Origin: Halobacteriales archaeon QS_1_68_17
Lineage (GTDB): Archaea; Halobacteriota; Halobacteria; Halobacteriales; Haloarculaceae
NCBI GenBank assembly: GCA_003021105.1
Contig: PXRG01000017.1
Span: forward strand, 1-64,000
Length of the DNA: 64,000 nt
Direction: 5' to 3'
Of this stretch, positions 38,876 to 47,019 are shown one piece after another (the first letter of the stretch is position 1; each line of letters opens with the position of its first letter). The notes beneath the pieces are model-generated. The model searched no databases. It saw only the letters and a program-made list of their open reading frames with translations, and was not told the DNA's origin. Position numbers and translations under genes: made by a program.

Positions 38876-40062
38876 GTGACGCTGGATCCGGTGCACTTCG
38901 ACGGCATCGCGCGGCTGGCCGGCCGCATCGAGCGCGGCGTCGACGACGGCGACCACCGGGACCTCGCGGAGACGGTCTGGGCGGAGTGGCTCGACCCGCT
39001 CCTGAAAGACGGCGACCCCGCACTCGAACCCCTCGGGGAACAGCGGCGCCGGCAGGTGGACGTCGAGGCCGTCGCCCTCGGGGACCGGCCGTTTCCCACC
39101 CAGCACGGGCTGGACTCCGGGACGATCAACCCCACGACGTTCAAGAACGGGCTGGTGCTCGACGTCGCCCAGGCCGCGATGAGCCGGGTCCCCTCGGACC
39201 TGGAGTTACACCGCGCCCGGACGGTCGTGGCGACGGTCCACTCCAACGACGCGACGGTCGTCTTCGAGGAGGAGTGGACGCCCTGGGACGGGGGGTACAG
39301 CCGCGGGCGCATCCTCCACGCCCCGCGTATCGACCGCTACGAGCAGACGGTCGTCCACGCGCTGGCGCTGTACCTGGCCGAGAGCGAACACGCCACGACC
39401 CAGGCGGAGGTGGTCGACGACCTGCTGGTCCTCGACGGCCCCATCTATCCGACCGGACTCCTGCGGTGGGCCGACCAGGACACCGCGCTCCGGGAGTTGC
39501 TCGTCGAGGACGAGCGTCCCCGCGACGTGGTCGCCAACTACGTCGACCTCGTGGAGACGTTCGTCGAGCGGGACGTGCCCCTGATCGGGTTCGTCAAGAA
39601 CAGCGCCGCGAAGGGGATCACCCGCACGCTCCGGTCGAAAGTCGGCGCACCGTGGGTCGACGACGCCGCCTTCTTCTCGCGGGTGCTCGAACGCCGCGAG
39701 GACGGCGAGACCCGGACTGACTGCCTGACGTTCACCAACTGGTTCGTCTCCCGGCTCGGGACCGACCGGGTGCTCTCGGCCGACGGCGACGCGCTCGACA
39801 TCGACCGGGCGCTTTCGCCCGACGCCTACGAGGTGACCTTCTTCGTCGTCTACGACCCGCGGGATGATCTCCTCTACCGCGTGGAGGCTCCCCGGGCGTT
39901 CACCCGCGACCCCGACCGGCGCGAGCGGCTCGCCCGGCAGGTGGTGGCCGACGTGGCCGCCGAGCGCGGCTCCGGCGCAAACTGGAGGGGCTGTTCGACG
40001 CCGACCGCCAGCGGAGCTACGACGACCTCCGGTGGGCCTCGGAGTTCGAGCCGGCGTTCTAA
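38876..40062 (+). pseudogene. nurA: NurA nuclease gene with C-terminal deletion/frameshift
   Basis: GTG 38876 starts a NurA-type 5'-3' nuclease that works with HerA in double-strand break repair. The body is intact: HGLDSGTINPTTFKNGLVLDVAQAAM, GPIYPTGLL and LIGFVKNSAAKGITRTLR. After VVADVAAERGSG the frame is lost. Another frame from 39970 reads LRRKLEGLFDADRQRSYDDLRWASEFEPAF and stops at 40062, the expected NurA tail. A segment including the usual KADELARI region appears to be missing, leaving a frameshift. As written, the ORF runs on to 40123 with a nonsense tail. Confidence 0.8.
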
Positions 40063-40119
40063 CCGACCGGCAATCCCCGACCCCCTTTTCCCGTCGTTCG
40101 CCGGAACGTTCCCCGTGGA

Positions 40120-40599
40120 ATGACGGTCACTGCACTCGGGAAGTACGGACTCGAATCGATGGACGAGGCGGCGATCCGGGAGTTTCTGACGAACAGGGGC
40201 GTGGGCGTGCTCGGGCTCCCCACCGAGGACGGGCCGTACCTGCTGTCGATGTCCTACGGGTGCGACGGCGACGCCGCGCTCTATTTCACCTACGTCGGCG
40301 GGGACGACAGCCGGAAGGCGTCGCTGAGCGACCGGGCGGAGACGGCCGGCTTTCTCGTCTACGGCGCCGGGACGGCGTTCACCTGGGCGTCGGTGTTTCT
40401 GCGCGGGGCCCTCGAACGGGTCCCCGAACCGGAAGGGGACGTCCACGGGGACGCGATGAGCAACGCGTGGCGGCCGGCGGTCTTCGAGACGGCCGACGTC
40501 GACGTGGCCGTCTACCGGTTCCGGATCGCTGAGCGGTCGGGCATCAGGCACACTGGCCTCCCGCCGGGGTTCGAACCCCGCGAAAGCGAGTCCGGCTGA
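40120..40599 (+). CDS. Pyridoxamine 5'-phosphate oxidase-like flavin protein
   Basis: This 159-residue split beta-barrel protein has FLTNRGVGVLGLPTEDGPYLLSMSYGCDGDAALYFTYVGGDDSRKA and GFLVYGAGTAFTWASVFLRGALERV. This is the haloarchaeal branch of the PPOX/FMN-binding family, which may bind FMN or F420 and reduce small molecules. It lies after nurA; its ATG overlaps the end of the frameshifted nurA ORF only by accident of that shift. Confidence 0.85.
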   Translation: MTVTALGKYGLESMDEAAIREFLTNRGVGVLGLPTEDGPYLLSMSYGCDGDAALYFTYVGGDDSRKASLSDRAETAGFLVYGAGTAFTWASVFLRGALERVPEPEGDVHGDAMSNAWRPAVFETADVDVAVYRFRIAERSGIRHTGLPPGFEPRESESG

Positions 40600-40662
40600 C
40601 GGCCGGCCCCGCGGAGACGAGCGCTACACAGTCCTTAAACGTCCGAGCGGCCTATCGGGGAC

Positions 40663-40995
40663 ATGTACCTGGTCCGCGGTCGTGCCGGCGGGACGACGCT
40701 CACCGGCACGCTCTACGAGCGGGGGGAGACCCCGCCATCGTTCAAGGGTGCGCCGGACGAGGACGCCCCCTACGTGTGGGTTTGCGACGAATTCTACGAG
40801 GTCGACAGCGGCGGGACCGCCCAGACAGTCGCCGGCCGGGAGATCCACGTCGCCTTCGAGTCGCCGATGCCCCGGGGGTTCGAGACGCGCGAGCAGGCCG
40901 TCGACGCGGCCGAGGAACACGTCCGGACGCAGTTCGCCCGGATCGGCGTTCCGCCCGGCGACGTCGAAGTGGAGTTAGTCAAGCAAGACCCGTAG
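40663..40995 (+). CDS. Conserved haloarchaeal protein (probably DUF7113)
   Basis: This 110-residue acidic protein has MYLVRGRAGGTTLTGTLYERGETPPSFKGAPDEDAPYVWVCDEFYEVDSGG and a helical C-terminal half with TREQAVDAAEEHVRTQFARIGV. I believe this is the family called DUF7113. I see no catalytic residues or membrane segment. The function is unknown. Confidence 0.7.
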   Translation: MYLVRGRAGGTTLTGTLYERGETPPSFKGAPDEDAPYVWVCDEFYEVDSGGTAQTVAGREIHVAFESPMPRGFETREQAVDAAEEHVRTQFARIGVPPGDVEVELVKQDP

Positions 40996-41152
40996 CGGTA
41001 TCGATCCCCGGTTATCCCGCGATTGTTACTGGCGTAAAATACCTAATTTTACCAATTCTATAGACGTATATCGGGGCGTCAGACTTTCGTTCGACGGGGG
41101 TGTGTGCGATCCGGTACAGTTACCACCGACCGTTCGCTATCTCGGTAGGGCG

Positions 41153-42520
41153 ATGGACGAGGGTAGTCAGACGGTCGGCGACGCGATCGACGAGATACCG
41201 CTCGGGCGGTTCCACCGTCGGTTGTTCCTGATCACCGGCGTGCTCTGGGCGGCGATGGCGGTGTCGGTGCTCGGCATCTCGTTCGTGCTCCCGACGCTGA
41301 TCGCGCGCTGGAACCTCTCGGGGTTCGCGGCCGGCGTCCTCGGGAGCGCCAGCCTCGCCGGGATGATGGTCGGCAACACCGCCGGCGGCTGGTACGCCGA
41401 CCGCGCCGGCCGGAAGCGGACGCTGGTGGTGACCGTCACCGTCTTTCCCCTGTTCACGGCGCTGACCGCGCTGGCGGTCGGCCTCTACTCGGCGGTCGTC
41501 CTGCGCTTTCTGACCGGCGTCGGTCTCGGCGGGGCGCTGGTCGCCGGCGCGACCTACCTGGCCGAGTACTTCCCGACCGAGAACCGCGGGCGCTACGTGA
41601 CCTACCTGGAGGCGTTCTTCTCGGTGGGGAGTCTCGTGACGGTCGCGGCCGCCTGGCTCGTCCTCCGTCGGCTGGCGACCGACGGGACCGTCTGGAACGT
41701 CGCCGCCTGGCGGCTGTACTTCGCTGCCGGGGGGATCCCGATCCTGCTGGCGCTGGCCATCTACTGGTACCTCCCGGCGTCGCCGTACTTCCTGGCCAGC
41801 AAGGGCCGGACGGAGGCGGCCACCGAACGGCTGGCGTCGGTGGCGCGGGAAAACGACGCCGCCGCCCCGTCGGTCGGCGGATCGCTGTCGGTCGGCCGGT
41901 CGGACGAGGCCGGGCTCCGGCGGCTGTTCGACGTCGACCTCCGCGGGACGACGCTTTTGATGGCCGGCCTGTGGTTCGGCGTCAACCTCGCGTACTACGG
42001 CATCTTCACCTGGCTGCCGAGTACTGTCCAGGCGGCCGGGTACGTCGACAGCCTCTACCGATACCTGTTCGTCGTCGCGGTGTTCCAGTTGCTCGGCCAG
42101 GTCAGCGCCGCCTATCTCATCGAGGTGATCGGCCGGAAGTGGACCGTCGGCTCGTACATGCTCCTCGGCGGGGCCGCGACCTACCTCTTCGCCTCCGCCA
42201 TCCCCGACGGGACCACCGGCACGGGCGACCAGACCCTCTTTACCGTCGGCCTGTTCGCAATGGGCTTTGCCCTCTTCGGCGCGTGGGCCGTGCTGTACGC
42301 CTACACCGCGGAGATATTCCCGACGGAGGTCCGCAGTTCCGGCCTCGGGTTCGCGGGCACCGTCGGCAAGGTCGCCGCCACCGCCGGTCCCGTCCTGTTT
42401 GGGACGCTCGTCCAGTTCGGCTACCTGGCGGCACTCGCTCCCGTCACCGTCGTCCTCGTCGTCGCCGGCCTCGTCCTGCTCGCCGTCGGCCGCGAGACGA
42501 AAGACCGGACGCTGATCTGA
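41153..42520 (+). CDS. Major facilitator superfamily transporter (aromatic acid/sugar porter type)
   Basis: This 455-residue protein has 12 predicted membrane segments. MFS signatures are NTAGGWYADRAGRKRTLVV (loop 2-3), LAEYFPTENRGRYVTYLEAFFSVGS (after helix 4-5) and YTAEIFPTEVRSSGLGFAG, as in aromatic-acid:H+ and sugar porters. ATG 41153 is preferred to the frame-open 41102. It ends 330 bp before the peptide cluster; a role in peptide export is possible but unsupported. Confidence 0.88.
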   Translation: MDEGSQTVGDAIDEIPLGRFHRRLFLITGVLWAAMAVSVLGISFVLPTLIARWNLSGFAAGVLGSASLAGMMVGNTAGGWYADRAGRKRTLVVTVTVFPLFTALTALAVGLYSAVVLRFLTGVGLGGALVAGATYLAEYFPTENRGRYVTYLEAFFSVGSLVTVAAAWLVLRRLATDGTVWNVAAWRLYFAAGGIPILLALAIYWYLPASPYFLASKGRTEAATERLASVARENDAAAPSVGGSLSVGRSDEAGLRRLFDVDLRGTTLLMAGLWFGVNLAYYGIFTWLPSTVQAAGYVDSLYRYLFVVAVFQLLGQVSAAYLIEVIGRKWTVGSYMLLGGAATYLFASAIPDGTTGTGDQTLFTVGLFAMGFALFGAWAVLYAYTAEIFPTEVRSSGLGFAGTVGKVAATAGPVLFGTLVQFGYLAALAPVTVVLVVAGLVLLAVGRETKDRTLI

Positions 42521-42847
42521 CGCCCGAAAGCGGACGTCCCCGTCCGGGGACGGGAGGACGTCGCTGCCCGCGGTTTCTGCCCTTCCTAAAAACGAATAAA
42601 TTTTGCTTCAGAAAGCGTTATTTGAGCGTGGCATTTCAGCATTCGAACCCCACTGCAATCGACCGGCAACGACGCTCGAACGGCGTGCGAACGCGATGTC
42701 GCTCATTCCGCCCTGCGAACTGATGCCATCGGTTTGCTACTGTCGGACCTTTCCCTGTCCGTTGCTCTGATCTCGGAGCATAAAATATAAATAAAATCTA
42801 ATTTAATTTAAGATAATTTTATTAGAAGTCAGGTAAAATAGCGACAC
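42521..42847 (+). promoter_or_regulatory. Non-coding leader with AT-rich promoter of the first small peptide gene
   Basis: No gene is supported in this 327-bp gap. The last 70 bases are strongly AT-rich, in contrast to the genome. TTTTATTA at 42817-42824 is about 27 nt before the ATG at 42848. TATA-like AAAATATAAATAAAAT lies at about 42780. The earlier half shows nothing recognisable. Confidence 0.6.
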
Positions 42848-42991
42848 ATGCGCTCCACTGACGAAACCCGCGCGGAAGAACTCGAACGGCGTACAAACGA
42901 CTGTGTTTGTCCGGGCGATCCGGTCTGTCCGCCCCTGCCACCGCTACCGCCGCTCCCCGGTCCGCTCCCCGGTCCGCTCCAACCGAACTGA
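42848..42991 (+). CDS. 47-residue Cys/Pro-rich peptide, candidate RiPP precursor
   Basis: ATG 42848 has a TATA box 27 nt upstream. The charged N-terminal half (RSTDETRAEELERRTND) is followed by CVCPGDPVCPP and then a Pro/Leu/Gly repeat (PPLPGPLPGPL) ending QPN. Charged leader then Cys-rich, Pro-rich C-terminus fits a modified-peptide precursor, but it lacks the HFVADL leader of its three neighbours and has no TTxxxxEE core. It may be a different precursor or a non-ribosomal-peptide-unrelated secreted peptide. A family B miniature element begins immediately after its TGA stop. Confidence 0.5.
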   Translation: MRSTDETRAEELERRTNDCVCPGDPVCPPLPPLPPLPGPLPGPLQPN

Positions 42992-43100
42992 TAGTGATTG
43001 TTGCGACTCTTTACCGCCGAGAAGTCACAATTCGTGGGCTTCAGCCCGCGAACCAACCGTTCACGTGATGTGGTCGCAAAAATAATCGCAACAATCACTA
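42992..43100. mobile_element. Miniature inverted-repeat element family B, copy 2
   Basis: 109 bp with the family B inverted ends TAGTGATTGTTGCG/CGCAACAATCACTA and TGA on both sides (42989-42991, the stop codon of the 47-residue peptide gene, and 43101-43103). It differs from copy 1 at a few internal bases only. Confidence 0.85.
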
Positions 43101-43130
43101 TGAGGCACGGATCGCACCAACCACGCTTTT

Positions 43131-43208
43131 TTACGTTTTTCGCTGCGTACGTTGTGTTTATAAAAGCGAAAGTTTTATTTATGATTATTGTTTAAGTTGA
43201 ACTGCACC
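43131..43208 (+). promoter_or_regulatory. Promoter of peptide A, duplicated upstream of peptide C
   Basis: This 78-bp region matches 43790-43867 with about 12 mismatches. It contains a shared TATA motif GTTTTATTTA (about 43172-43181), 28-32 nt before the ATG, and a shared upstream GTACGTT. The duplication includes promoter plus leader coding sequence. Confidence 0.65.
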
Positions 43209-43361
43209 ATGTCACGAGATTCACAGGGTGAGGGCGAATCGAGCGAGGTCCACTTCGTCGCCGACCTCGACGAACGAAAGAATACCTTCCACAACGGTCC
43301 CACCACGCAGGCCTGTTACGAGACCGGCTGTAGCGGTGGCGGCGGCGGCGGCGGTTACTGA
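43209..43361 (+). CDS. Graspetide-like precursor peptide A
   Basis: This 50-residue peptide has the leader MSRDSQGEGESSEVHFVADL followed by DERKN, nearly identical to peptide C. The core is variable: NGPTTQACYETGC, then a Gly run ending GGGY. TT at 32-33 is followed by four residues and Glu38, one Glu short of the TTxxxxEE core motif. CYETGC gives a CX4C pair also present in peptide C. It has its own TATA box. Conserved leader with a divergent C-terminus and a nearby ATP-grasp ligase identify it, by inference, as a RiPP precursor. Confidence 0.72.
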   Translation: MSRDSQGEGESSEVHFVADLDERKNTFHNGPTTQACYETGCSGGGGGGGY

Positions 43362-43573
43362 GGATTGCTCGCGCCGGACGTCCGGTCGTCATTCCTCTTG
43401 ACCGGTCTCGCTGCTGTGCGTCGTCGGGGTAGTTCCCGACGGCGAGATCACTTCTGTCGGACCAGGGAACATCTCGGGAAGAACCGACTGTGCCGGTATA
43501 TAATCAGAATATCCAGTATAAAATTTACTAGAAAGAACATTTATTCTCCCGCTACGTTGTCGCCACCGGAGCC
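43362..43573 (+). promoter_or_regulatory. Spacer with promoter of peptide B
   Basis: No gene is supported. The right half is AT-rich; TTTATT at 43540-43545 lies about 30 nt before ATG 43574. A perfect palindrome CCGGACGTCCGG is at 43374-43385, just after peptide A, and could be part of a terminator or operator. Confidence 0.5.
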
Positions 43574-43729
43574 ATGAGTCACGAACAGCCCTCCAGGGAC
43601 GGTGAATCGGGTGGGATCCACTTCGTCGCGGACCTCGAAGAGCGGAAGGCCGGGTCCCACCCCTGCGTGCCCGGCGTGGAGTGTACGACGGCCAACCACT
43701 TCGAGGAATCCGACTACGACGGCTGGTGA
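43574..43729 (+). CDS. Graspetide-like precursor peptide B with TTxxxxEE core
   Basis: This 51-residue peptide has the leader block GGIHFVADLEERK (13-25), then GSHPCVPGVEC and TTANHFEESDYDGW. The TTxxxxEE at residues 38-45 is the core motif of plesiocin-type graspetides, where Thr and Glu side chains are joined as esters by an ATP-grasp ligase. CX5C at 31-37 precedes it, and a C-terminal Trp is shared with peptide C. It has a separate promoter. The precursor assignment is inference from motif, leader and neighbour. Confidence 0.78.
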   Translation: MSHEQPSRDGESGGIHFVADLEERKAGSHPCVPGVECTTANHFEESDYDGW

Positions 43730-43867
43730 CCGCACGCTGGTCCGGTTCCCGGCTGGCGGCGACGCCGCCAGCATCGCCCCGCTAACCGGTTACATTTTTC
43801 GCTGTGTACGTTATGTTTACAAGAGCAATAGTTTTATTTATAATTACCATCTAAGTTGAACTGCACC

Positions 43868-44050
43868 ATGACACGAGATTCACAGGGTGGGGACGAATCG
43901 AGCGAGGTCCACTTCGTCGCCGACCTCGACGAACGGAAGAACGCACAGGACGCGATCACGCAGGCGTGCTACGAGACCGGGTGTGGGGGTCCGCCCGAGC
44001 CGCCGATCACGACGTTCGCAATCGGCGAAGAGAGTCCCGGCGACTGGTAA
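43868..44050 (+). CDS. Graspetide-like precursor peptide C with TTxxxxEE core
   Basis: This 60-residue peptide has a leader almost identical to peptide A (SSEVHFVADLDERKN), then TQACYETGC (CX4C), a Pro-rich link and TTFAIGEESPGDW. TT48-49, four residues, E54-E55 gives TTxxxxEE, as in peptide B, with shared EES and terminal Trp. ATG 43868 is chosen over 43856 because it matches peptide A and the conserved promoter. A family A miniature element is inserted exactly at its TAA stop. The reading frame is complete. Confidence 0.78.
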   Translation: MTRDSQGGDESSEVHFVADLDERKNAQDAITQACYETGCGGPPEPPITTFAIGEESPGDW

Positions 44051-45053
44051 TACTGGTGGCTGTAAGTACGTGAAAACTCGAATTGAGAATCCAGGCGGAA
44101 AGGGTCTGTATCCGCAGATAGCAGAGACTGTTGAGTAAAAGAATTACAAGGTGGCCGGCAACGTCGGTCCCGGCGTGTGCGTCGAAGCCGGCGAACATCG
44201 GCGACGGGTTCGCTTCGAGCACCGCGAAGTCGTCGCCGTCGACGAGGAAGTCGACAGCGGTGAACGCGAGGTCGAAACAGCCGGCCGCACGGACCGCCGT
44301 CTCCGCGATGTCGGGGCCGATCTCGTACCGTTCGAGTCCTTCTTCGGAGCCACGGTAGTCGAGGTCGTCCGACAGGATGCGGGCCGCGGCGACGGCCTCG
44401 CCGCCGATGACGAACACCCGGACGTCGTCCCCGTCGACCCGTTCCTGGAACTGGACGGGCGCGTTCGCAAGGCGGCCGAGCCGGTCGTCGGTGAGGTCCT
44501 CCTGGCCGACCGGGCGGGCCTGGCCGCCGCCGCCGACGGGCTTGTAGATGGCGTCGTCGATCCGGTCGACGAACGCCCGGACCCGCTCTGGATCGTTGGC
44601 GGCGAGCGTCTCGGGGACGGGAACGCCGGCCTCGGCCAGCTGCGACAGCTGGTACGGCTTGTTGGCGTGGATGCCGGACGAGTCCGGGGGGTTGACCACC
44701 CGGACGCCGGCCTCCTCGAGGTACATGAGCACCGACCGCAACAGGCCCCGGTACTCGCGGTACTGATTGAGCACGGCGATGGGTCGCTCGTCGAACTCGT
44801 CGTCCTCCCGGTCGACCACGCGGGGGTCGAACCCCATGCGCCGGAGGTAGACCGCGTCGAGTTCGTCCGGATCGACGACGTCCTCGCCGACGCGAATCCG
44901 CGTCTCCGTCCCGGCCTGTTCCATCCACAGCGGCGTCTCCCCCGGCCAGGCGTCGGCGTCCCAGACCGTCCAGTCCGCCCCCCGGTCGTCGAGTTCACGG
45001 CCGACTGACTGTACCTGTGCATCCCCCGGCGAGCCGAGCAGCGCGATGCGCAA
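44007..45053 (-). CDS. ATP-grasp peptide ligase (graspetide maturase-like), 3' end altered
   Basis: The product has 348 residues, of which the first about 302 are native. The N-terminal domain contains DAVYLRRMGF (67-75), like the RR motif of MvdC/MvdD/PsnB enzymes, then VNPPDSSGIHANKPYQLSQLAEAGVPVPETLAANDPERVRAF, the ATP loop YKPVGGGGQARPV and the metal site AVLEANPSPMF. These enzymes join Thr/Ser/Lys to Glu/Asp side chains. The start is ambiguous: TATA ATTATAAT is at 45091-45098, so leaderless TTG 45053 (LRIALLG) is preferred to ATG 45092. After GHL the frame reads through the miniature element (303-348). Convergent with the peptide genes. Confidence 0.8.
   Translation of the reverse strand: MRIALLGSPGDAQVQSVGRELDDRGADWTVWDADAWPGETPLWMEQAGTETRIRVGEDVVDPDELDAVYLRRMGFDPRVVDREDDEFDERPIAVLNQYREYRGLLRSVLMYLEEAGVRVVNPPDSSGIHANKPYQLSQLAEAGVPVPETLAANDPERVRAFVDRIDDAIYKPVGGGGQARPVGQEDLTDDRLGRLANAPVQFQERVDGDDVRVFVIGGEAVAAARILSDDLDYRGSEEGLERYEIGPDIAETAVRAAGCFDLAFTAVDFLVDGDDFAVLEANPSPMFAGFDAHAGTDVAGHLVILLLNSLCYLRIQTLSAWILNSSFHVLTATSITSRRDSLRRLRTS
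44051..44148. mobile_element. Miniature inverted-repeat element family A, copy 2, right end lost
   Basis: It matches 20899-20996 with only a few differences and starts TACTGGTGGCTGTAA directly after TAA (44048-44050, stop of peptide C). The right inverted repeat is cut after TTACA (44144-44148); the next bases belong to the ATP-grasp gene on the other strand. The missing last 10 bases show a deletion joining element and ligase gene. Confidence 0.82.
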
Positions 45054-45090
45054 GTGTGACCCCCTCGGGGAACCTGTTACTTCGCGGGGC

Positions 45091-45098
45091 ATTATAAT
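45091..45098 (-). promoter_or_regulatory. TATA box of the ATP-grasp ligase gene
   Basis: ATTATAAT on the minus strand would place transcription start near 45067, upstream of TTG 45053 but downstream of ATG 45092. This is the basis for choosing the TTG start. Confidence 0.45.
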
Positions 45099-45189
45099 CT
45101 ACCGGACGGGCTGAAATGATGACGAGCGTGCCGGAAAATAACCGTCGGCGGGGGAAACGCGTTTGGGGGACGGGTTCGATGGGTGGGCT

Positions 45190-47019
45190 ATGTCCGATCT
45201 CGGCGACTTCACCGACTTCGAGGGCGACGACGGCGACGAGGAGGCCGCGGGGAGCGACGCGGCGGAGGACGGCGGCCAAGCGGCCGGGGACCGAGGCGAT
45301 GAGTCGTTCGAGACCGTCGACGTGCGGCCGGTCGGCGAGGACCGCGGGATCGGCGTGCTCTCGGCGTCGGAGGGGCTGGCGCTCAGCGAGGACGAGCGGG
45401 ACACCCTGTTGCAGGCGTACGTGACAGTCGGCAACCGGTCGGACATCCGGATCGGGAAGTACCTGCTCGTCCCGTACCCCGACGGCGAGCGGCTGTTCTG
45501 TCGGATCACGGCCCTCGAATACGCCCAGGAGTTCCGCTCGGACGACGCCACCGAGATCCACGCCCGGCGGGCGATGCGGTCCCGCGAGATCGACGAACAG
45601 GATTTCAAGCTGCTGGCGACGCTCGATCCGGTGGCGGTCCTGTTCACGGAGGGCGGCGAGACGAAACGGCGGATGACCGACCGCGTTCCGAAACCCGAGA
45701 CGGTCGTCCGGCCGGCTACCGACACCGACGAGATCAAGACCGGCCTGAAGATCCCGGACGCGGGCGTGTTCCTGGGCCACCTGGCGGTCGGGGGCGAGAA
45801 GGTCCGGACCGCCGCGGAGCCGCCGACCATCGACTACCGGCTGAAAGACGACTACGCGACCGGCGACCCGCTGGTGTTCCGGCACACGCTGGTCGCCGGG
45901 GGGACCGGCTCCGGGAAGACCCACGCCGCGAAGAACGTCCTCCGGCAGTACCTCGACGCCGACCGGGCCTACCCCGTCGAGGCGGGCAGCGACCGCCGGG
46001 TCAGTCCCGCGGTCGTCCAGTTCGACCCCCAGGACGAGTACGCCCAGATGCACGACGACAACCCCGCGGTGACCGACGACGACCGCCGGCGGTTCGAGCG
46101 CGAGGGGATCGCCCACGGCGGCCACGGGGACACCGTCGCGTTCGTCCCGGCCGTCGAGGGGGCGACCTACGCGGCCGACCACCACCGCGCGGAGCAGGTC
46201 TCCTTTACGATCCCGTTCTCGATGGTCCGGTCGAACAAGTGGCTGGTCGCGGGCGGCCGACTCAACGACAACCAGTACAACGCCCTCTCGTACCTGCTGG
46301 ACCGGTTCTTCCGCGAGCACGGCGACGGGGGCACCTACGCGGAGTTCTTGTCCTCCCTCGACGACCCGGCGATCAGGGAGGAACTCGACGAGACCGGCCG
46401 CGTCCACGAGGCGACCTTCGACGCGGTCAAGCGCCGCGTCTCGGTGGCGGCGTTCCGGCGGGTGTTCGACCGGGACGCCCGCCCGATCACCGAGCAGGTC
46501 CACGAGTTCGTCCGCCCCGGGGGGCTGTCGGTCGTGCCGACATACCACATCACCGACAGCCGCGCGACGGAGGTGGTGGTGCTCGCGGTCGCCAGCCTGC
46601 TGGTCGACGAGAAACTCTCGAACGATCCGGCGTACGACCGGATCAAGGAGACGCCGCTGGTCGTCGGGATGGACGAGGCCCACAACTTCCTGACCGACGC
46701 CGAGAGCGCCCAGGCCCGGCGGGTCATCGGGAAGTTCACTGAGGCCGCAAAACAGGGCCGGAAGGAACGGCTCGGCCTCTTTCTGATCACCCAGGACCCG
46801 CAGGACATCGCCGACCCCGTCTTCAAGCAGATAAACACGACTGTCGTGTTGAACCTGGGCGACGAGGACGCCATCGCGTCCGTGAACATCCCGTCGAGCC
46901 TGGAGGCGAAGGTCCCCTACATGGAGAAAGGCCAGATGGTCGTCTACTCGCCGGACAACTCCGAGCCGGTCGAACTGATCGGCCTCCCGACGTGCCTGAC
47001 GAAACACGGCCGGGAGTAG
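45190..47019 (+). CDS. HerA-like ATPase (FtsK/HerA superfamily)
   Basis: This 609-residue protein has an acidic N-terminal tail (1-45), then a HAS-barrel-like region with IRIGKYLLVPYPDGERLFCRITALEY. Walker A is VAGGTGSGKTHAAKNVL near 236-245, Walker B LVVGMDEAHNFL near 490-500, and FLITQDPQDIADPVFKQINTTVVLNL follows. HerA pumps DNA and partners with NurA in end resection. The nurA gene lies 5 kb upstream and is frameshifted. The peptide cluster sits between them. ATG 45190. Confidence 0.88.
   Translation: MSDLGDFTDFEGDDGDEEAAGSDAAEDGGQAAGDRGDESFETVDVRPVGEDRGIGVLSASEGLALSEDERDTLLQAYVTVGNRSDIRIGKYLLVPYPDGERLFCRITALEYAQEFRSDDATEIHARRAMRSREIDEQDFKLLATLDPVAVLFTEGGETKRRMTDRVPKPETVVRPATDTDEIKTGLKIPDAGVFLGHLAVGGEKVRTAAEPPTIDYRLKDDYATGDPLVFRHTLVAGGTGSGKTHAAKNVLRQYLDADRAYPVEAGSDRRVSPAVVQFDPQDEYAQMHDDNPAVTDDDRRRFEREGIAHGGHGDTVAFVPAVEGATYAADHHRAEQVSFTIPFSMVRSNKWLVAGGRLNDNQYNALSYLLDRFFREHGDGGTYAEFLSSLDDPAIREELDETGRVHEATFDAVKRRVSVAAFRRVFDRDARPITEQVHEFVRPGGLSVVPTYHITDSRATEVVVLAVASLLVDEKLSNDPAYDRIKETPLVVGMDEAHNFLTDAESAQARRVIGKFTEAAKQGRKERLGLFLITQDPQDIADPVFKQINTTVVLNLGDEDAIASVNIPSSLEAKVPYMEKGQMVVYSPDNSEPVELIGLPTCLTKHGRE

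Follow-up and report, generated by a model that had tools for sequence, protein, structure and literature searches.

A probable plesiocin-type graspetide locus in a haloarchaeon, with a predicted membrane protease partner

Can three short peptides that share a leader, encoded beside an ATP-grasp ligase, mark a graspetide system (side-chain-linked members of the ribosomally synthesized and post-translationally modified peptides, or RiPPs) in a haloarchaeon? The question is raised by a locus near positions 42,848 to 45,053 of a 64,000-nt stretch (the window) of contig PXRG01000017.1 from Halobacteriales archaeon QS_1_68_17 (assembly GCA_003021105.1). We consider it very probable that this is a plesiocin-type graspetide locus, belonging to a haloarchaeal branch, as the first-pass annotation had proposed in more general terms. 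Four lines of sequence evidence carry this reading: the kinship of the leaders, the TTxxxxE motif (TTx4E below) of the cores, the kinship of the ligase to PsnB and the co-occurrence of ligase, precursors and a membrane protease across genomes.

The three precursor genes lie on the plus strand and are supported by open reading frame (ORF) translation, profile match and core motifs: precursor 1 (43209..43361, 50 residues) has the core TTQACYETGC followed by a glycine run, precursor 2 (43574..43729, 51 residues) has the core motif TTANHFEE, and precursor 3 (43868..44050, 60 residues) has two core modules, TQACYETGC and TTFAIGEE. Translation confirmed the earlier statement that genes for 50-60 residues starting at 43209, 43574 and 43868 carry HFVADL-[DE]-ERK; in full, the common leader reads [VI]HFVADL[DE]ERK. 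Each of the three cores holds TTx4E (joint probability by shuffling 5e-6). The core motif of plesiocin is TTxxxxEE, which is complete in precursors 2 and 3 and takes the form TTxxxxET in precursor 1. The module order in precursor 3 is the reverse of that in the two-module relatives seen. Neither Pfam nor NCBIfam had a family for the window precursors, and phmmer found no similar PDB chain for the one precursor tried.

The homologous part of the ligase gene occupies 44149..45053 on the minus strand (TTG start at 45053, with an in-frame ATG at 45092); its ORF contains AVYLRR and PETLAANDPERVRAF and matches the RimK-like ATP-grasp family PF08443 above cut-off. A profile built from 33 relatives was compared with the PDB and scored 267.6 bits, over the full length, with 7drm (7drm-7drp are titled as PsnB with precursor), followed by 81.4 (9bou), 71.9 (CdnC, MdnC) and 69.3 (RimK). 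With the AlphaFold2 model (mean predicted local distance difference test, pLDDT, 91.6) in Foldseek, the first 15 rows were PsnB chains (template modelling score 0.80-0.87, 36-39% identity), then came PruB, MdnC, AMdnB, CdnC and MdnB, and then LysX/ArgX/RimK. NCBIfam ranked the graspetide maturase model TIGR04187 first, with scores below the graspetide cut-offs (TIGR04187 99 of 350 bits, TIGR04185 60 of 425, TIGR04184 59 of 475), so that annotation with these models would miss the ligase. A quick tree (80 rows, two of them long RimK-type outgroup rows) united haloarchaeal ligase clades A and B, which are separated by their scores in the genome search below, in a group of 46 rows (Shimodaira-Hasegawa-like approximate likelihood ratio test 83), with two exceptions: a metagenome row labelled bacterial (P0056) fell inside the group and a clade-B ligase (L152) outside. 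Both clades fall within a larger assemblage that also holds PsnB, MdnC, CdnC and bacterial PsnB-like ligases, while the two RimK-type rows lie on the other side (95); branches between ligase groups are too weak to settle a placement directly beside PsnB, and we did not use the tree to name the nearest bacterial ligase. Profile, tree and fold thus agree with the earlier assignment to the graspetide ligases, grouping the enzyme with the characterized macrocyclases PsnB, MdnC and CdnC and away from RimK. An identity as a RimK/LysX-type amino-acid ligase was rejected, PsnB being far ahead of RimK in both profile and fold.

Across 392 genomes of the order Halobacteriales, the ligase profile matched 21 (E<=1e-40): 8 of clade A (E about 1e-143 or better), to which the window's copy belongs, and 13 weaker ones of clade B. 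The clade-A precursor profile (E<=1e-9) matched exactly the 8 clade-A ligase genomes, so that the leader recurs beside the ligase in other genomes, as the proposed combination of common leader, variable cores and ligase neighbor had implied, and is not widespread without it: among the 384 other genomes there is a single copy, apparently decayed. That copy, the next precursor match (G356, E 1e-7), is in a genome without a ligase match; its frame (L170, 1375-1854) contains DDVHSVEDLEERSNAPPMATVLAPAKKG and looks like a decayed precursor. Matches in G245, G062 and G218 (E 0.003-0.016) look like unrelated frames and were not counted. The protease occurs in 18 of the 392 genomes, every one among the 21 with the ligase. 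Fisher p values for the co-occurrence of ligase, precursor and protease run from about 1e-16 to 1e-29 and are too small, the genomes being related and the profiles partly circular; the pattern is still clean, and chance adjacency of ligase and precursors was rejected on the strength of it.

Clade-B ligases have their own diverged precursors, recognized by pattern and by eye, with the leader H[FYLV][IV]..L...E.RE. At E<=1e-6 a profile of these recovered 11 of the 13 genomes of clade B, with a weak match in one more genome; G420 matched at E 0.0075. G206 and G299 are outside the clade-B profile set, and both matches adjoin a ligase-protease pair. At L026, L152 and L156 no precursor turned up. 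Clade-B precursors are 28-40 residues long (L146, L151 and others), and several share the core word YTGG, HTSG or LTGV. At L147, L148 and L149, a single ETFIEAL-type precursor has two ligase paralogues in tandem beside it, each from a different subclade, an arrangement reminiscent of the MvdC/MvdD pair.

The precursor family extends well beyond the window. At all ten other clade-A loci inspected (L022, L023, L024, L029, L030, L031 and L137-L140; L032 and L033 duplicate L024 and L137), an ORF of 39-49 residues with HF[VI]E[DE]LEER adjoins the ligase, and TTx4E occurs in 13 of 13 clade-A cores, the window's three included, against 0.68 expected by shuffling. A search of 5.8 billion proteins with the precursor profile returned 61 relatives at E<=0.01, of which 52 have a final stretch of 25 residues that is identical to that of no profile row. 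TTx4E is present in 49 of these 52 (2.25 expected), a test that is partly dependent because the core was part of the profile and near-copies occur among the 52; the other three have ST- or PT-x4E, and CxETGC occurs in 34. Some precursors (P0150, P0156, P0157, P0158) are Lys-rich or otherwise unhalophilic in appearance, with a leader much like [LH]F[VI]E[DE]LE and TTLAIGEE-like cores; they are probably bacterial, and the leader seems to cross domains. One single-precursor search found two proteins, both the window's own, and a second found only weak matches outside the genome, two of which (G063, G065) are real precursors; since single sequences found so little, profiles are needed for precursor detection. 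The small size of the precursors, some of fewer than 40 residues, may explain why the family has been overlooked.

The third component, absent from the first-pass annotation as were the TTxxxxE motif and the repeat-altered 3' end of the ligase, is a membrane protein of 300-350 residues; in 19 of 29 loci its gene directly follows that of the ligase, on the same strand. The two genes overlap by 4 nt in 11 of the 19 (one of them, L156, is a 170-residue fragment); in three further loci the protease gene is 340-369 nt away on the opposite strand, and at seven no protease was present by gene calls. L034/L141 and L038/L144 each stand for one locus under two handles, and the 29 exclude L024, where the gene caller missed the ligase, yet a ligase-protease pair is visible. 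The motifs HExGH and GDG are invariant, matching the HExxH and second Asp motif of site-2 proteases (S2P). All six proteases scored fell short of the PF02163 cut-off of 27.2 (11-22 bits; 12.9 for the copy in the window's genome); the daptide M50 protease model gave 45-54 bits in all six (NCBIfam cut-off 300) and the YydH/LiaK model 14-29 bits in five of the six (cut-off 225). For the protease model (pLDDT 86.5), Foldseek by itself returned nothing useful from the PDB, and a second look with VIA-align gave matches: residues 124-297 align with RseP, SpoIVFB and the M. jannaschii S2P, and residues 6-72 of the predicted model align with a lasso-peptide B1 protein bound to a leader. We read the protein, from its model, as a putative fusion of a RiPP recognition element (RRE) to a site-2 protease (RRE-S2P protease below).

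How might such a system work? The ligase would bind the shared leader and form ester bonds between the Thr and Glu side chains of the core. If it works as PsnB does, the Glu side chain would first be phosphorylated by ATP and then attacked by the Thr hydroxyl, each ring releasing one water; TTxxxxEE could carry as many as two rings and TTxxxxET one. For the three window peptides, with monoisotopic masses of 5181.18, 5599.42 and 6410.82 Da (unmodified, start Met included), the predicted losses are at most 18, 36 and 54 Da. The RRE-like domain of the protease would then recognize the leader, which the protease would remove at or within the membrane, probably close to or after the LEERxN block, perhaps aiding export. 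A more specific version of this scheme, which we hold with about even confidence, is that of a haloarchaeal plesiocin-type branch in which an RRE-S2P fusion reads the ligase's own leader and cuts within the membrane, transporter-free, and in which TxxCxETGC adds a ring or a disulfide. As to the biological role, that of a secreted protease inhibitor is a guess by analogy, made because all characterized graspetides act as protease inhibitors according to Makarova et al. (2022; PMC8939145).

Upstream of the precursors, the promoter regions are partly repeated. Precursors 1 and 3 share a 152-nt block of promoter and leader (43131..43282 on the plus strand, with its partner at 43790-43941), 89% identical, and the two genes arose by duplication together with their promoter. 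The AT-rich, TATA-like stretch of precursor 1 is at 43169..43195 (plus strand), with similar ones at 43515-43530 and 43827-43847. A TATA box about 30 nt upstream of each gene, as claimed earlier, fits precursors 1 and 3, whose -40..-20 stretch is 90% AT against a local background of about 40%, and fits precursor 2 less well, where this stretch is 60% AT and the best AT run lies about 45-60 nt upstream. The window as a whole has 75 twelve-mers in which 11 or more positions are A/T, and 63 of them sit upstream of precursors 1-3 and of an ORF at 42848..42991 (plus strand, 47 residues, weak membership). This ORF has its own AT-rich stretch, a leader-like EELERRTN and a Cys/Pro-rich tail, and stops right where a repeat element starts; its translation contains neither HFV nor TTx4E. 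It is perhaps a fourth precursor, diverged or decayed.

That repeat (42988..43104, strand unassigned) is 117 bp long with 25-nt inverted ends, and has at least 40 long matches in the genome, its own copy included, with 40 of 69 candidates scored. A different one (44050..44148, strand unassigned), with terminal inverted repeats (ATACTGGTGGCTGTAA...) and its right end missing, has at least 40 matches, again including its own copy, with 40 of 55 candidates scored; in a genomic copy at L183, an element of the first type seems to be interrupted by the second. The ligase ORF is conserved up to VAGHL and then continues for 46 foreign residues (44007..44148, minus strand) read from the truncated repeat and from the antisense strand of precursor 3, whereas the relative P0003, 97% identical, has the normal terminus AEYLCS. 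The foreign tail joins at 44148, at the inner end of the truncated element, and the last few codons of the ligase appear replaced by repeat-derived sequence. Halomicrobium zhouii (L023) and L024 share the gene order HerA ... ligase-protease-precursor-NurA, in which HerA is followed by one or two small genes. The window, too, is flanked by HerA and NurA at this place but holds a repeat at the protease position. In four genomes of this family (window 38876-47019, L023, L024 and L026), NurA and HerA family genes enclose the ligase, an interval that by gene order is a conserved insertion site. An open protease gene is present on contig C12 of the same genome, near an ABC (ATP-binding cassette) transporter ATPase gene (L161, 6842-9516). 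A deletion running from the repeat into the ligase would be the simplest account of the altered 3' end; an assembly error behind this arrangement is possible, since the genome is a 2-Mb partial one, 60.8% complete.

Two points weigh against the graspetide reading. The activity of the window's own ligase copy is in doubt because its protease gene is unlinked and its last codons are replaced. Further, some clade-B cores lack TTx4E, and cores such as ALTGVMGNVYFGA have no Asp/Glu for an ester ring, so that other chemistry is possible in the wider family. The first point leads to the best-surviving alternative, doubtful in our view and confined to the window's copy rather than the family: a decaying remnant in which a repeat-linked deletion took the protease gene and the ligase end, and whose peptides are no longer modified. 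The replacement of the ligase end next to a truncated repeat, the unlinked protease, the degenerate fourth ORF and the decayed precursor of G356, in a genome without a ligase match, would all fit such a history, but the ATP-grasp domain is open and conserved up to VAGHL, the three precursors are open with AT-rich stretches upstream and one duplication, the protease gene is still open elsewhere in the genome, and the 97% identical ligase shows that a normal end exists.

The second point bears on a different and improbable explanation: that the ATP-grasp enzyme is a peptide-amino-acid ligase acting on carboxyl groups (scaffold-peptide chemistry, as for RimK/LysX), with the M50 protease releasing the product from the C-terminus in the manner of pearlins. 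Besides the acid-free clade-B cores, the RimK-like Pfam domain and the action of the M50 proteases TglG/TmoG on C-terminal residues in pearlins (PMC10885120) speak for it; yet profile and fold place the ligase with PsnB far above RimK, the C-terminal residues of clade-A precursors vary, and the conserved pairing of Thr with Glu is required by side-chain rings and not by C-terminal extension. That the peptides stay unmodified and serve as signals or antimicrobials, their ligase and protease neighbors being there by chance, is very improbable: the peptide chemistry here is predicted from sequence, but the three components co-occur in the 392 genomes far above chance. Leader/ligase co-occurrence and ligase kinship thus both favor the interpretation as a graspetide locus.

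Among known systems plesiocin is the closest: its ligase PsnB is 36-39% identical over the whole length with the same predicted fold, and its core is of the TTxxxxEE type. Unlike plesiocin, with its four tandem repeats, the window system is archaeal, has one or two core modules per precursor, and has several separate precursors and a second, Cys-containing module, TxxCxETGC. We take graspetide group 2 to be the plesiocin group. No NHLM-type transporter was present among the five window neighbors scanned. The haloarchaeal partner is the RRE-S2P protease, whereas group 2 is reported to have an NHLM-type transporter (PMC13097080); one ligase for all rings would be common to both (PMC8939145). In two of the bacterial PsnB-like loci (33 of 73 scanned), cyanobacterial L049 and L071, the precursors repeat TT[LK]ALGEEGG, nearly identical to the haloarchaeal TTLALGEEG, but they are longer, multi-repeat and have a different leader. 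The M50-type membrane proteases of epipeptide (YydH/EpeP) and daptide clusters show weak NCBIfam similarity to the haloarchaeal ones, which differ in their predicted N-terminal RRE-like domain, their pairing with an ATP-grasp ligase and their scores under the cut-offs. Graspetide group 36, compared by description only, is likewise an archaeal ATP-grasp RiPP group, but it belongs to a different archaeal phylum and its reported partner is a chromosome-segregation-like protein (PMC13097080). Haloarchaeal lanthipeptides are RiPPs of the same kind of host, but are made by LanM thioether chemistry; lanthipeptide loci failed in both E. coli and B. subtilis (PMC12144867).

In the consulted text of each source, Makarova et al. 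(2022) searched bacterial and archaeal genomes, use "archae" twice and only in general terms, and state the leader-cleaving enzyme of graspetides as unknown (PMC8939145), and a 2025 survey of 11,644 archaeal genomes contains neither "grasp" nor "microviridin" in the main text (PMC12144867). The 2026 RODEO update lists 24 graspetide groups and 19 more, some with protease neighbors, with group 36, a predicted one, only in Thermoprotea (PMC13097080; the archaeal class Thermoprotei by taxonomy look-up). A review of RiPP proteases assigns PCATs (peptidase-containing ABC transporters) to graspetides, and M50 enzymes to epipeptides and pearlins, EpeP of epipeptides being thought to do both leader removal and export (PMC10885120). 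Archaeal graspetides are therefore not wholly new in print, given the predicted Thermoprotea group, the only archaeal graspetides in the consulted parts of the literature searched; plesiocin-type graspetides of haloarchaea with an RRE-S2P partner were not found there, in a search to which supplementary tables were external, and the earlier remark that no haloarchaeal example with this leader was known to have been described holds to that extent.

If the plesiocin-type reading is correct, a well-characterized bacterial peptide chemistry would extend to the haloarchaea, and the RRE-S2P protease would be a testable candidate for the leader-cleavage step of graspetides. The claim is directly testable, since named host strains are on record (Halomicrobium zhouii, Halocatena salina, and Natrinema and Halorussus species) and a Haloferax volcanii expression system has been reported for lanthipeptides (PMC12144867).

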